Both the position numbers and the translations under genes were made by a program. DNA of 64,000 bases from an uncultured bacterium (GTDB lineage Bacteria > Verrucomicrobiota > Lentisphaeria > Victivallales > UBA1829), in assembly GCA_902762495.1 (NCBI GenBank), contig CACWOL010000004.1, positions 1-64,000 of the forward strand. Reading direction: 5' to 3'. Position 1 is the first letter of the stretch; every line of letters starts with the position of its first letter. This document shows positions 53,961 to 61,431 of the stretch, one piece after another. Under the pieces are notes generated by a model. That model searched no databases and had not been told where the DNA came from. It was given only the letters and a program-made list of their open reading frames with translations.

Positions 53961-53999
53961 AAAAAGGAAGCGCCGGACCCGGTTTCATTCGGATCCGGC
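53961..53999 (-). terminator. Rho-independent terminator of the AIDA/RTX gene
   Basis: GCCGGACCCG (from 53972) pairs with CGGATCCGGC (to 53999); the minus strand then reads CTTCCTTTTT (to 53961). The hairpin resembles those at 59248 and 4631. Confidence 0.7.
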
Positions 54000-54044
54000 A
54001 CATTTGATGTCCTCTGTGGATGGGTGTCAACAAAACACCGTTTT

Positions 54045-56816
54045 TCACACGATGTGCGATCCCTCGAAGATGCGTTCCGAGGTAAAGTCGAGGAAGGCTC
54101 CGATAGAGGACAGTGCGGCGAATTGGGCGGAACCGTCGTCGCCGAATTTGAGCGTGATCTGTTCTGCCGCGACGCCGGAGACCTTGACGCTGTTGTCGCC
54201 GTCCATATAGGTCAGCGTTTCTGCATTCCAGTTCGCTTCACTGCCGGATGCGAACCACAGCGTGACGGTGCCTGACACGAGCTGTTCCACATTATCCACG
54301 CCCCAATTATCGCAGAAGGTGAAGACATCCTCACCACCGCCACCGTGCAAGCGGTCATTTCCAATGCCACCGGCGATCACATCATTGCCGGATGCACCGA
54401 CAATGCGGTCGTTTCCAGCATCACCGAACAGGAAATTGTCGCCCTTGTTTGCCCAGATGGTATCGTTGCCTTCACCACCTCGAATCGTCAGACCTTCGCC
54501 GATGTACTCGAACCGTTGACTGGTCATGTCTACGATGTCGGCACCTGCACCAGCTCTGATTTCGTCAATTTGAGCGATACGCGACTGTTTCTCTGCAACA
54601 TTCCCTGGAGACGCCGTGTAAATATCGTCCACGAATAACGTATCGCCGTTGTCATCATCCGTCATGAGCAGGATGTTCGCATCGGTCGAGCCTTCGATGA
54701 TGTCCGCAAGCTTGTTCTTGCCGGAAACAGAGGCATACTCGTTCGTTCCAGCCCAATCGTTGATAGATCCGACGTGCTGCGCCAGATAACCAGATTCCCA
54801 AGTGCCGACAGCATTGGCGAAGAATACATCCGCATTACCGTCTGCATCGGACTTGATGAGTTGCGGTTTAATGTCGCTCTCGGGAGCAACGATTGGATCG
54901 CCAGTCATCCATTCACTGCTGCCATCCTGCTTAACGCGCATTTGATATGTGCCAGTCGGCATACGGAAGGCATCAAGCGAGGGTGTCGTGACCGCGAATG
55001 TGATTACATGCTCGAAGTTGTCCGGACTGTATTCGACAGTGTACGGCTTGAAGCCAGAGACAGTAAACGCATCTCCAGTTGTCACTGCGGATTCATTGCC
55101 TGCGAAGTCCACCGCCTGCACACTCCAGCTGTAGGATCCGAAGTCAGCGTTGTTCAGCACATAATTCGTGTTGCTCGTCCTGACGGAGAACACCAGATCA
55201 TTGATCAAATAGGTCACGACGTACTCCTTGACTCCGGACTGATTGTCCGTGCTTCCATTCCAGAGCAACGCGACATCCTGTCCTTCGACAAACGCCCTAA
55301 CACCTGCCGGATCACTTGGGGCGACCTTGTCAATATTGGAAACTGTGTAGCTGACGACCTCGGATTCATTCCCAGATGTATCTACAGCCTTGAAATAGAC
55401 GGTTCCGTTTTCCCTCACGGTCACACCATCCACATATGCGGACCACTCGCCAGCCTCGCCGAGCTTGAACAGGGATTGTGCCAGTTCAACGTCATCGGCG
55501 AAATCCGCCGTCAGCACGACATCCTGATTCGTCAGTGTGGTTGTGCTCGCTTGAACATTCGACACTGTCGGAGCTGTAGTATCCGGCGGTATGGGCCCTG
55601 CGACACTCAAAAAGAGGGTTTCATCGCAAATCTGCAACGTGTAAGTGTCTTCGCCTACTTCAAACGATTCCCCGACTTTGAGCGTACCAAGGGATTTCCC
55701 CGTTGTATTCTTTACCGTAATCGTACCGTCGAATTCAGACGCTGCATCTGCAAGCCTGTAGATGCCCGTTTCCTGATTGTCTTTGACTGCAATCGTGTAG
55801 TCCGGTGTCCCCTGAATCAGCGACCAGTCACTCAACAACGCTTTTTTTTCTTCATCACTCTGTGTTAAGTCAAAAACAATAAGCGCCCCATCTTCGACCG
55901 TACATAAAGCTCCATTTTCGATATTAATCTTTCCTGTAATTATTCCACCAGCAAAGATTTTTACAGTGCCACCAATGGATACAACGAGATTATTAAGCAA
56001 ACCTCCAGAAGAAACAAAAACTTGTCCACTATGTTTTATCTTAGTTTCATTCGCTACTCCACCACTAAAAACATATATGTTTCCACCGGAGTTTGCAGTT
56101 ATATCATTCCCTGTTGTTGAGGAGTGAATAGTTGTAATAGCATCAGAGATGGATAAATCAGAAAAAGTATTAGAGAGAAAAGAACATGTTCCTCCTTCTT
56201 GGATATCAACAGCTCCACCATTTTCGACAAAAGATTCCCCTTTTCCCCTTTTATTTATCCTAATACGGCCACCAGCATTGACAAGGACATGATTCGCAAC
56301 GCCATCATTTATCCACATGCTTCCGCCATTGTTTATTACAGTATTATTTGCTGTTCCCAACTCAATTTGAACGCTCCCACCGGAGTTAACTATGGTACTA
56401 TCTGCTATTCCACCCCAGATATCAAACAAACCATTTTTATATATTTCTGTGTTAGTAGCAGTTCCACCGGAATAAACGTGAAATCCGCCCTTACTGTTGA
56501 TAATTGTACTATCCGCAACTCCCCCAGAAATGCCAACCCAACCACTACTGTTGAGAATAGTTCGAGTCAACTGCCCACCAAAAACATGAATAGAACCAGA
56601 GTTAGCTATGGTATTATTTACAACACCACCAGAAGAAATAAGCATACGGCCTTTTGAAAGCGTAGTGCTATTCACAGCACCTCCGGAAGAGACAAACATA
56701 TCACCACTTTTGATTGTAGTAGACAGGGCTATTCCTCCGTCAAGAACAGTCATTGTATCATTTTCAAGAATAATTCCGCTACTGACTTCGCCATTGGGAA
56801 CAATGTATTCAGCCAT
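54045..56816 (-). CDS. AIDA-repeat and RTX-repeat surface protein
   Basis: The protein has 923 residues. Residues 1-330 are about fifteen AIDA-like repeats of 19-22 residues, pattern [VI]-x-S-G-G-x-[AV]-x-x-T-x-[IV]-x-x-G-G (for example VSSGGAVNSTTLSKG), predicted to form a beta helix. Two fibronectin/Ig-like domains follow (about 420-640, starting TAPTVSNVQASTTTL). Four RTX nonapeptides (GGEGNDTIW, AGNDRIVGA, SGNDVIAGG, IGNDRLHGG; near 800-840) bind calcium and usually accompany a C-terminal type I secretion signal. There is no N-terminal signal peptide. The 5' half is AT-rich while the 3' half is near the genome norm, so it is mosaic. It is probably a secreted surface or adhesin-like protein. 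No exporter is in the window. Confidence 0.85.
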   Translation of the reverse strand: MAEYIVPNGEVSSGIILENDTMTVLDGGIALSTTIKSGDMFVSSGGAVNSTTLSKGRMLISSGGVVNNTIANSGSIHVFGGQLTRTILNSSGWVGISGGVADSTIINSKGGFHVYSGGTATNTEIYKNGLFDIWGGIADSTIVNSGGSVQIELGTANNTVINNGGSMWINDGVANHVLVNAGGRIRINKRGKGESFVENGGAVDIQEGGTCSFLSNTFSDLSISDAITTIHSSTTGNDITANSGGNIYVFSGGVANETKIKHSGQVFVSSGGLLNNLVVSIGGTVKIFAGGIITGKINIENGALCTVEDGALIVFDLTQSDEEKKALLSDWSLIQGTPDYTIAVKDNQETGIYRLADAASEFDGTITVKNTTGKSLGTLKVGESFEVGEDTYTLQICDETLFLSVAGPIPPDTTAPTVSNVQASTTTLTNQDVVLTADFADDVELAQSLFKLGEAGEWSAYVDGVTVRENGTVYFKAVDTSGNESEVVSYTVSNIDKVAPSDPAGVRAFVEGQDVALLWNGSTDNQSGVKEYVVTYLINDLVFSVRTSNTNYVLNNADFGSYSWSVQAVDFAGNESAVTTGDAFTVSGFKPYTVEYSPDNFEHVITFAVTTPSLDAFRMPTGTYQMRVKQDGSSEWMTGDPIVAPESDIKPQLIKSDADGNADVFFANAVGTWESGYLAQHVGSINDWAGTNEYASVSGKNKLADIIEGSTDANILLMTDDDNGDTLFVDDIYTASPGNVAEKQSRIAQIDEIRAGAGADIVDMTSQRFEYIGEGLTIRGGEGNDTIWANKGDNFLFGDAGNDRIVGASGNDVIAGGIGNDRLHGGGGEDVFTFCDNWGVDNVEQLVSGTVTLWFASGSEANWNAETLTYMDGDNSVKVSGVAAEQITLKFGDDGSAQFAALSSIGAFLDFTSERIFEGSHIV

Positions 56817-56885
56817 TTTGAATTCACCATTTGTTATCTGTTATTGTTCATTTGAATTCGGAAAGAATTCGTCGTTTGCAAGTCC

Positions 56886-57494
56886 TTATCGAATCAAATC
56901 ACATAACGACAAATGTTCCCCATCTGTCGTCTTTCTTATAAAAGCCTGTTCTGGAGTTATATTGCTTACTGGTCGTGTATAAGGAATATCTTCTGAAATT
57001 GGCGGCATAACCGCATCGTGTAAAACAACAAAGTATCTTCTATAATCGTTGCCTAAAATATAACATCGATGGAAACGAGCAAGAATTGCATGAAGAAAAT
57101 CCAACAAACAGGAACTGCTTCTTAGCTGTGATACATAGTCTTCATAATTGTCCCCCTCCATTTGCGGAGTTGTTGCTACCGCTGATTGAGAATGTACAGA
57201 GGATTTTAGTTCAACAAAAACAGCAACCTTGTTGCCTTCAAATTCCGATAATAGGATATAGTCGCACTGCACGCCCCCATATCCACTAGTAAAGTATTTC
57301 ATTTTTGTTTTATCCGGTTTTAGTGCCAGATAATTTGGTGTCAAATCAGAAACAAATACCCTTCTTAAAGTCGCATGTTCTCCTCGCTCTTCCAAAACAA
57401 AAGAATCAGAAGAATAATTTCTTTTTACACTATCCAAAAGGACTTTATTCAGCAAAGATATTTCTTTTGCTGTTGGCTTGATATTACTCGCCAT
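56886..57494 (-). CDS. PD-(D/E)xK nuclease-like protein paired with an AAA15-type ATPase
   Basis: The protein has 202 residues. The central pattern GGVQCDYILLSEFEG then VAVFVELKSS (Asp78, Glu95-x-Lys97) fits the D-(E)xK core of PD-(D/E)xK nucleases, on adjacent beta strands. The remainder is helical with no recognised motif. ATG 57494 is preferred (AAAGGAGG seven bases upstream) over 57563. The gene starts 11 bases inside the ATPase gene, so the two are translationally coupled. AAAGGA-GGA-TCCTTT around the ribosome site could form a small hairpin and limit translation. Context suggests an effector of an ATPase-controlled defence system. The nuclease call rests on the motif alone. Confidence 0.65.
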   Translation of the reverse strand: MASNIKPTAKEISLLNKVLLDSVKRNYSSDSFVLEERGEHATLRRVFVSDLTPNYLALKPDKTKMKYFTSGYGGVQCDYILLSEFEGNKVAVFVELKSSVHSQSAVATTPQMEGDNYEDYVSQLRSSSCLLDFLHAILARFHRCYILGNDYRRYFVVLHDAVMPPISEDIPYTRPVSNITPEQAFIRKTTDGEHLSLCDLIR

Positions 57495-58836
57495 AAAGGA
57501 TCCTCCTTTGAAGCGCGTTGACCTCGCGAATAGATTCGTCAAAACTAGTAACTTCAATGCCATATTTTTGATTGATATCCATTTGCTTTACTGTACCATC
57601 TTCAGCGATATAGCATTTGACTTTTTTGGGGGATAGCAGACAATTAAGATGTTTTTTATCATAGCCCAGTTCTTTTACAATATTCTTTAACCGGGGCGAT
57701 TTGGCATTGTTTAACATGATCAAAGTGTTAAGTTCGCGGATAATATAATCGCTATGAGTTGTAACAGCGACATAAATATCTGCATTCACCAGCATTGCTA
57801 GCAGTCGTGCGATTTTTCTTTGATTTTCAGGATGCAAATTCAGCTCAGGCTCGTCAATGACTAAGCATTGGGCATATTTGGATTTGTGTTTCAAATAAAA
57901 GTTAAGTTCCATTAAAGAACGTACCGAACTAGAACTTTCCAACATTGTCAATCCTGTATTTGTACCAAATGGAACAAATGTTACAATGTTGGGTTCTACT
58001 AGACGATACTCGCCTCCAACAATACTAGCAAAATATTCTAATATTTCTGGGTGTTTTTTTGCTATATACCCTTTTTCTTGAATTGCTTCATCAAAGCGGC
58101 ATACGAATTCCAAATCCTTGTTCATTGGGCGGGGATGTCCGCGAAAGTCCATTTTTTGATACAATTCTTCTATTTTCTGATCAACATTTTCCTGTTTTGA
58201 AGAAACAGATCTTGAAACAACAAAATCAGTGCGAAACGCCGCTGCACCCGTCCGTTCACAGGTTATAATAAACAATTCAGGAATTGCAGTTTTCAAAACA
58301 GCAATCAAAGAGTTCGTTAAAACTTGTGTTATTACATCTTGATTCGGCAATTCATGAGCGTTGTTGTACAATGAAACATCTAAGTATTTTTTTTCTTTTT
58401 CCTTAATAACATTTATTGTACAATCCTTTAATGCAGGAATATTCCAATTGAAATGGACATATTTCATGACAGCATTTTGGCGTTTCTTTTCGACATGCAA
58501 AGAAAGCTTTGTGTTTTTGTATAAATCTTCATGAGCCGCCATTTGTCTTGCCATTTCATTTTTTATCCAAGGCGCCATAGATGATTCAATGTATTGATTA
58601 ATATTGCTTAAAAATGGCTCAAGGGGGATGCTAATCTTCCCTTTTTCCAGAAGCTGTTCCGCATATTGATTATCCATGGGAACTTTCAAGTAGTAATGAA
58701 TAGCATCAATATAGTTAAACGCATTATAGGTTATATATGTTTTTCCTGTATTGTTTTTTCCGCACAAAATAGTCAAATCACCGAATTCTAATTCGGCATT
58801 TTTGATTAAACCGGCATTTTGAATTGTAAATTTCAT
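57484..58836 (-). CDS. AAA15/OLD-like ABC-type ATPase
   Basis: This 450-residue protein is an ABC/SMC-like ATPase. Walker A GKNNTGKT spans residues 26-33. An insertion domain of helices covers about 45-270. The ABC-like signature SSSSVRSLMEL is near 300, Walker B CLVIDEPELNLHP near 325 and the switch TTHSDYI near 360. The C-terminus has no TOPRIM-type acidic cluster that I can see, so it is not a classic OLD nuclease. ATG 58836 follows AAGGAG by eight bases. Such ATPases act as sensors or motors in PARIS, Septu, retron and related defence systems, with the effector in the next gene, as here. A 12-base inverted repeat (TTGTG-TG-CACAA, 58875-58886) lies upstream and could be an operator. Confidence 0.85.
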   Translation of the reverse strand: MKFTIQNAGLIKNAELEFGDLTILCGKNNTGKTYITYNAFNYIDAIHYYLKVPMDNQYAEQLLEKGKISIPLEPFLSNINQYIESSMAPWIKNEMARQMAAHEDLYKNTKLSLHVEKKRQNAVMKYVHFNWNIPALKDCTINVIKEKEKKYLDVSLYNNAHELPNQDVITQVLTNSLIAVLKTAIPELFIITCERTGAAAFRTDFVVSRSVSSKQENVDQKIEELYQKMDFRGHPRPMNKDLEFVCRFDEAIQEKGYIAKKHPEILEYFASIVGGEYRLVEPNIVTFVPFGTNTGLTMLESSSSVRSLMELNFYLKHKSKYAQCLVIDEPELNLHPENQRKIARLLAMLVNADIYVAVTTHSDYIIRELNTLIMLNNAKSPRLKNIVKELGYDKKHLNCLLSPKKVKCYIAEDGTVKQMDINQKYGIEVTSFDESIREVNALQRRILYGE

Positions 58837-59153
58837 ATAAAAAACTCCTTGGTATATCAAAAAGAAATCAGGCGTTGTGTGCACAATTTTTTAAATAAAA
58901 CGGCAAAAATGAACTTGGCATGAGGAAACATGAAGGATAAATATGGTCCCAGTCGCTAATATACCCCCCTTCCCAGGAAAAATCAAATGGTTTTTCTGTT
59001 TTTTTAATCTTTTTCAGCTTTTTATAGTGGGAAAGGACGCGATGCGTCCCCGCTTCGCCGGGGGCGGCTTTGCCGCCTCGGTAGCCTCGCTTACGCTCGG
59101 CGACTTTTTTAGATTACTGCTGAGGCGCGAGAGGCGGAGCCTCCGCTGCGGAA

Positions 59154-59175
59154 GTGTTCTGCTATGCGAGAACAC
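59154..59175. repeat. 22-base hairpin, 7-8-7 layout
   Basis: GTGTTCT, an eight-base loop, AGAACAC. It has the same arm and loop lengths and the same outer GTGT/ACAC as 7802-7823, but the inner bases differ in a compensated way. Confidence 0.75.
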
Positions 59176-59247
59176 GAAGACCGCGGAGCGGATTATGCAA
59201 TCAGGGCAGGCGCAGGCAGACGGTCTGGCGGAGGCAGAATCCGAGCA

Positions 59248-59281
59248 GAAAACGCCGGACCCGAGTTTTGTCGGATCCGGC
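59248..59281 (-). terminator. Rho-independent terminator of the GH43 gene
   Basis: GCCGGACCCGA (from 59254) pairs with TCGGATCCGGC (to 59281); the minus strand continues GTTTTC. It is a close relative of the hairpin at 53972-53999. Confidence 0.7.
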
Positions 59282-59310
59282 GCGATTGATCATGTCGTCA
59301 GGTATGGAGA

Positions 59311-61431
59311 TCAATCCTTCGGCAGGTTGGTGCCCCATTTTTTCATCAGGGCGTCGTACTCGGTCTGGCCGAGCGTGATGACGCCGCCGTGACGGAACCG
59401 GTACGGGAACTCCAGCCCGCGTTCGGACGGGGCGAAATCGCCCTTCGAGAGGTCGTCGCAGAAGAACGCCTTGTAGCCCTGGCCGCGCGAATAGTAGTCG
59501 ATGATCATGCACCAGCGGCCGTCGGCCATGCGGAAGCATTCCGGCCCCTCGTAGCCGACGAAGTTCTTCACGGGGAATCCGGGCACGGGCTTCCATTCGC
59601 CCTCGAGCGAATCGGAGACCTCCAGGATGATGGATTTCTGCGTCTCGTCCTTGGAGAACCGGTAGAGCTTGCCGCCCTCGGACACGATGTCGGTGTCGAT
59701 GATGTCGTTCGGCTTCTCGATGTAGAGTTTCGCCGGGGTGAACGTCTTGAAGTCCTTCGTGCGGGCGGAGTAGATGCGCTGGCGGTTCGAGCCGTTCAGC
59801 GTTTCGCGCGACGCCCAGAAGACGAAGAACTCTTTCTTATCGGCGTCCCAGAACGCCTCCGGGGCCCACGTGCAGCCCGCGTTCGGCACGGCGACCTCCA
59901 CGCGGCGCGGCTCGCTCCAGTTCACCATGTCCTTGGACTCCCACACGATGATCGCCTTGCTGCCCGCGCGCTGGGCGCGTCCCCAGTCGCCATTGCGCCC
60001 GATGCACAGGTCGGTCGCGATGAGGTAGATCATGCCGTTGTCGGGATTGCGGACGATATACGGATCGCGCACGCCGCCTTCGCCGAGGTTGCTCTGAAGC
60101 ACGGACTTCCCGCCGTTCAGCGGCTGCCACTTCGCGCCGTCCTTGCTGATGGCGAAGAAGATCTGTTCCCATTCGTTCGAGCGTTCGCCGCGGAAGTGGG
60201 CGAAGAGATAGCCCGCGGTCTTGCCGTCTCCGGCGGGCTTCGCGGCGTCATTTTTCGAGGCGGCGGCGGGGGCCGGTGCGAGCTGCGCGGGCAGTTTCCA
60301 GGTCTTCTGGTACTTCGCGACCGGCTTTTCGCCCTCCCATTCGAGCGGGAGCCAGATGTACTGGCTGGTCATCAGGTTCTGCGGCTTCCAGCTGTCCAGC
60401 ATCACCACACGTTCTTCCTTGCCGTCCTTGCCCGGCACGGTGAAGCTGTGCGCCGTCTGCCCCTCGTAGGTGCGGTCAGCGCCCTGCCCGACCGCGAAAT
60501 TGCCGAGTTCGCGCCACGGCCCGGTGATCTTGTCGGCGACCGCGGTACGCCCGGGGTTCGGATTCCAGCCGGTGCAGTGCGAACCGAGCAGGTAATACTT
60601 GCCGTCGTGACGGAACACGACCGGCGCTTCGTAGGATTTCCCCTCGAGGATGCGCCACCAGCGGCCGGTGAATCCGGTGTACTCGTCATTCAGCTCCACG
60701 ATGTGCATGGTCTGGTTGTTCTCCGACGCGCAGAAGAGATACGCCTTGCCGTCGTCGTCCACGAACACCGTCATGTCGCGGCTTTCCTGACCGGGCTGGT
60801 AATTCTCCACGAGGCGCGCGAACTGCCGGTCGTAGGTCTGCGATTTCCCCTCGGCGTAATCCTTCAGTCCGGCGGGCAGATTGACCGGCCAGGTGCCCGG
60901 CGCGGTGCGGCCGCTGTAGAGGTGCTTGAACGGTCCGGTCGGCGAGTCGGCGATGCCGCAGCCCACGAACGCGGAGTTGTAGTTGCCGCCGGATTCCTGA
61001 TGGAACCACAGCACATACTTTTTCGTTTTCGCGTTGTAGACCACCTTCGGACGCTCGATGTTCGCCCCGAACGAGAATCCGAACCCGCGGCGTCCGCCGG
61101 GCTGCTGTCCCTGCGTCTGCATGGTCGCGGAATCAAACACCAGCCCTTCGTCTTTCCAGTTGTAAAGGTCTTTCGAGCTGTACGCGTGCACCCCGGTCTT
61201 CCGGTCGCGCGTGCGGTGTTCGCCGTACCAGTAGTAGGTGTCGCCGACTTTCAGCATGCAGCCGCCGTGCGCGCTGATGTGCGCGCCGTTGTTGTCCGGC
61301 CAGACTGTGGCATGGTTCGTGAATTCGCTCAGCTTGGGGACGCTGTTCTGTGCGGACGCGGTGAACGCCGCGGCGCAGAGCATGACGGCGGCCGCGACCG
61401 CCGGACGGATGAGATTCGTGCGGAAAAACAT
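59311..61431 (-). CDS. Secreted protein with two GH43-like beta-propellers
   Basis: The protein has 706 residues with a signal peptide (AVAAAVMLCAAAFTASAQN, cleavage near 28). The first five-bladed propeller (about 40-380) starts NNGAHISAHGGCMLKVGDTYYWYGE, as in GH43 subfamily 24-like exo-beta-1,3-galactanases, which lack the usual Asp base at this place. An Ala/Pro linker (395-420) leads to the second propeller (about 425-700). That one has YLFAHFRGERSNEWEQIFFA and GGVRDPYIVRN, as in GH43 arabinofuranosidase/xylosidase-like proteins, with EAFWDADKKEFFVFWAS in the middle. ATG 61431 (AAGGAG at eight bases) is preferred over 61467. It probably attacks arabinogalactan-type side chains; activity of each propeller needs testing. 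Confidence 0.82.
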   Translation of the reverse strand: MFFRTNLIRPAVAAAVMLCAAAFTASAQNSVPKLSEFTNHATVWPDNNGAHISAHGGCMLKVGDTYYWYGEHRTRDRKTGVHAYSSKDLYNWKDEGLVFDSATMQTQGQQPGGRRGFGFSFGANIERPKVVYNAKTKKYVLWFHQESGGNYNSAFVGCGIADSPTGPFKHLYSGRTAPGTWPVNLPAGLKDYAEGKSQTYDRQFARLVENYQPGQESRDMTVFVDDDGKAYLFCASENNQTMHIVELNDEYTGFTGRWWRILEGKSYEAPVVFRHDGKYYLLGSHCTGWNPNPGRTAVADKITGPWRELGNFAVGQGADRTYEGQTAHSFTVPGKDGKEERVVMLDSWKPQNLMTSQYIWLPLEWEGEKPVAKYQKTWKLPAQLAPAPAAASKNDAAKPAGDGKTAGYLFAHFRGERSNEWEQIFFAISKDGAKWQPLNGGKSVLQSNLGEGGVRDPYIVRNPDNGMIYLIATDLCIGRNGDWGRAQRAGSKAIIVWESKDMVNWSEPRRVEVAVPNAGCTWAPEAFWDADKKEFFVFWASRETLNGSNRQRIYSARTKDFKTFTPAKLYIEKPNDIIDTDIVSEGGKLYRFSKDETQKSIILEVSDSLEGEWKPVPGFPVKNFVGYEGPECFRMADGRWCMIIDYYSRGQGYKAFFCDDLSKGDFAPSERGLEFPYRFRHGGVITLGQTEYDALMKKWGTNLPKD

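Follow-up and report, generated by a model that had tools for sequence, protein, structure and literature searches.

The two overlapping genes examined here very probably constitute a divergent member of the PD-T4-4/PDC-M47 (WonAB-like) two-gene anti-phage family, in which gene A would act as the sensor and gene B as the nuclease. Both genes matched PADLOC models and are therefore homologues of named or candidate systems, not components of an undescribed one. The window, i.e., the whole stretch of DNA that was analysed, comprises the first 64,000 bases of a 75,209-base contig from a 2.76-Mb draft genome.

Organization of the gene pair

Gene A (57,484–58,836, minus strand) encodes a 450-aa OLD/ABC-type ATPase, and gene B (56,886–57,494, minus strand) encodes a 202-aa PD-(D/E)xK-like protein. 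The translations confirmed that the two open reading frames (ORFs) are adjacent on the same strand, A first, with an 11-base overlap (57,484–57,494, minus strand), and that the residues named in the first-pass annotation are all present, i.e., Walker A (GKNNTGKT), Walker B (IDEPELNLHP), and the TTHSD switch in gene A, and D78, E95, and K97 in gene B. The ribosome sites reported there could also be read directly from the sequence, with AAGGAG upstream of the gene A start and AAGGAGG upstream of the gene B start, the latter inside the 3′ end of gene A; the two genes may be translationally coupled. Both genes are AT-rich, as had been described: the G+C ratio was 0.34–0.39 in the three 1-kb steps from 56,001 to 59,000, versus 0.45–0.69 in the rest of the window, and the AT-rich stretch extended into the start of the next downstream gene as well.

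Similarity to known anti-phage systems

Gene A matched Pfam AAA_15 (E-value 1.1e-22), and its best PADLOC model was PDC-M47A (3.4e-119 over residues 1–450), followed by PD-T4-4_A (2.3e-111 over residues 1–449). The best model for gene B was PDC-M47B (6.4e-9 over residues 27–160, at a low score of 33.8 bits), and the weak match to PD-T4-4_B (6.5e-6 over residues 30–200) was the only other PADLOC match at E-values up to 1; nothing was found for gene B in Pfam, NCBIfam, or PHROGs. The PD-T4-4_A models were matched by all 13 aligned A sequences, in which K32, R195, D328, E329, and H361 are invariant, and the PD-T4-4_B model PDLC04034 by 11 of the 14 aligned B sequences, the window proteins being included in each case. 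A profile of 79 B relatives, built without the window protein, gave window B 62.1 bits, compared with 4.6 bits for the best of 500 shuffles, so its kinship to the family exceeds chance; the reversed sequence fell below the rows listed.

Weaker PADLOC matches of gene A were those to AriA of PARIS (4e-25), Old (3.5e-15), PtuA of Septu (1.9e-12), and GajA of Gabija (7e-11), which share its OLD-like ATPase class but score far lower. The effectors of these systems differ (TOPRIM, HNH). PARIS was rejected because the TOPRIM effector AriB is absent beside the ATPase, and Septu and the PtuAB of retron Ec78 because the HNH nuclease is absent, gene B having only the two PADLOC matches given above and none in Pfam.

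The first-pass annotation had read the two genes as an AAA15/OLD-like ATPase plus a PD-(D/E)xK-like protein, which agrees with the AAA_15 match and with the motifs and model of gene B. It had also called the pair undescribed, with no named system corresponding to it, and had listed a direct match of both genes to such a system as grounds for giving up this proposal; that match is what PADLOC returned. In addition, the literature already contains the pairing, as PD-T4-4 (PMC9519451, PMC10952713) and as WonAB (PMC12137116).

PD-T4-4 is described as an Escherichia coli anti-phage system obtained by functional selection and located in an ICE-like element (PMC9519451), and is given in a review as PF13175 plus a PD(D/E)XK nuclease domain, with its tested function entered as N/A (PMC10952713). 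The window pair likewise joins an OLD/AAA_15 ATPase gene to a gene for a PD-(D/E)xK-like protein, and the PD-T4-4 models match both, but A and B of the relative on an E. coli plasmid (L009) are just 27% and 18% identical, respectively, to those of the window, and window B has an extra stretch of approximately 14 residues. PDC-M47, where PDC presumably stands for phage defence candidate, provides the best model for both window genes; its name was not found in the literature searched, and as far as we saw it is a candidate only.

WonAB, an operon of an OLD-ABC ATPase and a PD-(D/E)xK nuclease in the WASA-1 prophage of Vibrio cholerae, is reported to be similar to PD-T4-4, to act by abortive infection through inhibition of translation, and to require K34, R182, E300, and H333 of WonA and K71 of WonB (PMC12137116). 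A second paper gives the same account and refers to a survey of ABC ATPases by Krishnan et al. (PMC12409358). The invariant K32, R195, E329, and H361 of window A and K97 of window B may correspond to these essential residues. The two effectors differ in that WonB is given as 16.1 kDa (PMC12137116), whereas window B has 202 residues.

Relatives and conserved linkage

Relatives of the pair occur on plasmids and in Vibrio phages. An A relative was present in 35 plasmid records, all below 60% identity and 21 of them covering at least 80% of A, and in three phage records, all from Vibrio; a small hypothetical gene follows A in eight of nine annotated plasmid and phage loci. On an Enterococcus faecium plasmid (L014), the A-like ATPase is followed by an IS256 transposase, with no B gene there, and an aminoglycoside resistance gene lies nearby. 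Searches with gene B recovered only window B itself from the genomes of 100 relatives, and tblastn yielded no match among plasmids.

A scan of genome contigs retrieved no relative when the single A protein was the query; the 13-sequence A alignment did find relatives, of which 80 genome loci (the best 80 of at least 301) and 27 viral loci were fetched. Counting as B-like those ORFs with E < 0.001 against a profile of 14 B proteins, we found one after A in 77 of these best 80 genome loci (the exceptions being L033, L081, and L093) and in all 20 viral loci examined, seven of the 27 having been excluded beforehand for short or partial matches. The total of 97 out of the 100 related loci examined bears out the conserved two-gene unit anticipated in the first-pass annotation. 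Ten of the viral B-like ORFs (L098–L104, L111, L112, and L114) scored just 19.8–29.5 bits, and L113, included in the count, is apparently the same phage as L011, included in the B profile, so that its row is not independent.

Regarding the distribution within the phylum, the PD-T4-4_A model at 1e-40 detected 6 of 288 genomes, including that of the window, and none of 14 control genomes. Gene A was present in one of the 13 genomes of the genus, namely, the window's own.

Predicted fold and target of gene B

Among the 14 aligned B proteins, E36, D78, K97, and Q123 are invariant and D61 is nearly so. In the larger alignment of 80 proteins, D78 and Q123 are retained in all 80, position 95 is always acidic (76 E and 4 D), K97 is found in 71 and replaced in nine (7 Q, 1 C, and 1 S), and E36 is found in 70 and replaced in ten. 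The AlphaFold model of gene B, computed from 80 sequences (pLDDT 81.5, pTM 0.82), places D78 directly before strand 79–85, E95 and K97 in the last residues of strand 88–97, and Q123 in helix 115–142, so that this check, recommended in the first-pass annotation, set the named residues on the expected hairpin and helix. An aspartate followed by (D/E)xK on a β-hairpin and then a helix is the PD-(D/E)xK arrangement, and gene B displays it in the 80-protein alignment and in the model.

Structural comparison of the model with VIA-align reached a best Z of 4.9, and most of the 50 rows shown were Can2/Cdn1/Card1, XisH, BsmI, Bse634I, Shedu, HamA, FokI, and Bax1, which we take to be PD-(D/E)xK enzymes; unrelated folds came within 1 Z of the best, acetyl-CoA carboxylase at Z 4.2 being tied by VIA's own rule. 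Foldseek returned no match at E ≤ 0.001 against either solved structures or viral predicted structures, and we do not read a new fold into the lack of a strong match among solved structures. Pfam matches over the 80 B proteins were scattered and weak, the commonest being HSDR_N_2 (13 of 80, best 0.0086). A single PDB sequence match at E 1.5 was taken as chance, the B family profile finding none. Motif and model thus provide good support for the predicted PD-(D/E)xK fold class of gene B and fold comparison weak support, which makes for moderate support overall.

The VIA-align neighbours listed above include many DNA nucleases. They favour a possible reading, though one to which we give less than even odds, that the pair belongs to the same family but B cleaves DNA, either the phage genome or both genomes, like classical PD-(D/E)xK restriction nucleases, and the nuclease domain in the review entry for PD-T4-4 points the same way (PMC10952713). 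Against DNA cleavage stand two observations on WonAB, namely, that overproduction of WonB left genomic DNA intact while translation was inhibited, and that phage DNA replication continued under WonAB with a 2.7-fold defect (PMC12137116). Targets may nevertheless differ within the family, because some operons similar to WonAB carry a distinct nuclease, according to the same paper (PMC12137116).

A subclade with a modified gene B

The phylogeny of 38 A proteins nests window A within the family, where it groups with L006 and L007, from two other genomes of the phylum, at a local support of 0.96; support falls to 0.69 one node up. The spacing between K97 and Q123 of gene B is 25–26 residues in these three, 9–12 in the other 11 of the 14 rows, and 9–14 in the other 79 of the 80 rows. 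A stretch of approximately 14 additional residues, lying after the catalytic strand and before the Q helix, is therefore confined to the window, L006, and L007 among 93 B proteins (the 14-row and 80-row alignments combined, the window protein being in both). A third genome (L005), from the genus of L006 and L007, falls outside the group and has a spacing of 11. This insertion is the sole distinctive feature that we found, and novelty is limited to this small subclade.

Together with the mere 34 bits that gene B scores on the best known model, the extra residues are what would speak for a truly separate, undescribed defence system. We consider this extremely unlikely: the full-length matches of A to PDC-M47A and PD-T4-4_A at E < 1e-110, the nesting of window A within the family, and the B proteins of L006 and L007, which bear the same motifs as window B, argue against it, and the PADLOC matches of the window pair and of the aligned A and B relatives largely refute it.

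Insertion and genomic neighbourhood

Comparison with same-genus genomes delimited an insertion of approximately 5.3 kb (approximate extent 53,986–59,321). Its flanks lie 0–180 bp apart in six of the nine same-genus loci compared (L125–L128, L130, and L131), and the left side was unmatched in the other three (L129, L132, and L133). As the left (~54.0 kb) and right (~59.3 kb) flanks adjoin in these six, the pair is located inside the insertion. A flanking glycosyl hydrolase gene is found in 11 of the 13 genomes of the genus, including that of the window. At the edges of the insertion are the two plus-strand copies of an imperfect 44-nt direct repeat that appears hairpin-like by eye, a left copy (53,965–54,008) and a right copy 77% identical to it (59,247–59,290).

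The insertion also carries a passenger gene (54,045–56,816, minus strand), whose 923-aa product is of surface type and contains AIDA and RTX calcium-binding repeats according to Pfam. We dropped this gene as a possible third component, given that it had no PADLOC match and that its relatives occur in all 13 genomes of the genus, at 3 to 47 matching places each, versus gene A in one. An AIDA/RTX-type annotation was likewise absent from the nine plasmid and phage loci, a weak test in that many genes there are merely labelled hypothetical.

No defence island was seen around the window pair among the six other window proteins scanned, five of which had no defence match in PADLOC, the sixth being a partial Wadjet JetC approximately 54 kb away. 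Of the five other copies in the phylum, two are surrounded by restriction, Abi, or SIR2 genes; the wider neighbourhood was viewed in G192, G220, and G286 of these five, which also include G266 and G245. In G192 (L137, 2,182–11,794), the pair has a DrmD-like SNF2 helicase on one side and a type III methyltransferase on the other; AbiD/Abi_2 and a GmrSD-like gene come next, and all of these genes share one strand. The G220 locus (L138) contains a SIR2-domain gene, a DUF3990 gene, and a 238-aa gene that matched nothing; in the G286 locus (L139), a DUF3990 gene is accompanied by a 354-aa gene for which Pfam gave no match. The DUF3990 genes in these two same-phylum genomes are upstream of the pair (1,995–2,498 in L138 and 8,150–8,644 in L139).

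The JetC match concerns the ORF at 83–2,908, whose residues 2–691 correspond to positions 473–1,165 of the 1,471-position JetC3 profile (6.9e-159). The remainder overlaps an opposite-strand ORF (2,108–2,875) that is AraC-like by eye. The ORF is a partial jetC, truncated by the contig start and without the C-terminal part.

Proposed mechanism and implications

By analogy with WonAB, the window pair would function in phage defence as follows. Gene A, as an OLD-type ABC ATPase dimerising on ATP, would sense infection, and gene B would be a PD-(D/E)xK-fold nuclease bound by A and dependent on it. Infection would alter the A dimer in an ATP-dependent manner and so activate the bound B, which would then cleave nucleic acid; if WonB is a guide, RNA belonging to the translation machinery is a likelier substrate than the chromosome. 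Growth arrest and loss of phage yield would follow. For WonB, rRNA or tRNA is suggested by the authors as a possible target (PMC12137116).

The 11-base overlap, which couples a small gene of nuclease type to a larger one, would also suit a toxin-antitoxin system in which A, as the antitoxin, simply sequesters B. We regard this as very unlikely, since overproduced WonB was non-toxic when WonA was missing or ATPase-dead, which argues against simple sequestration in WonAB (PMC12137116). Returning to the sensor-nuclease reading, a bolder and rather doubtful extension would be that the family-wide effector is an ATPase-gated ribonuclease that halts translation, and that the approximately 14-residue insertion of the subclade alters the RNA target or the docking on the ATPase.

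The pair founds no new system. It places PD-T4-4/PDC-M47 in the genus of the window, in one of 13 genomes, and reveals a subclade with a modified effector; as a divergent member, it is a useful comparison point for how these ATPases sense phages and for what the nuclease targets.
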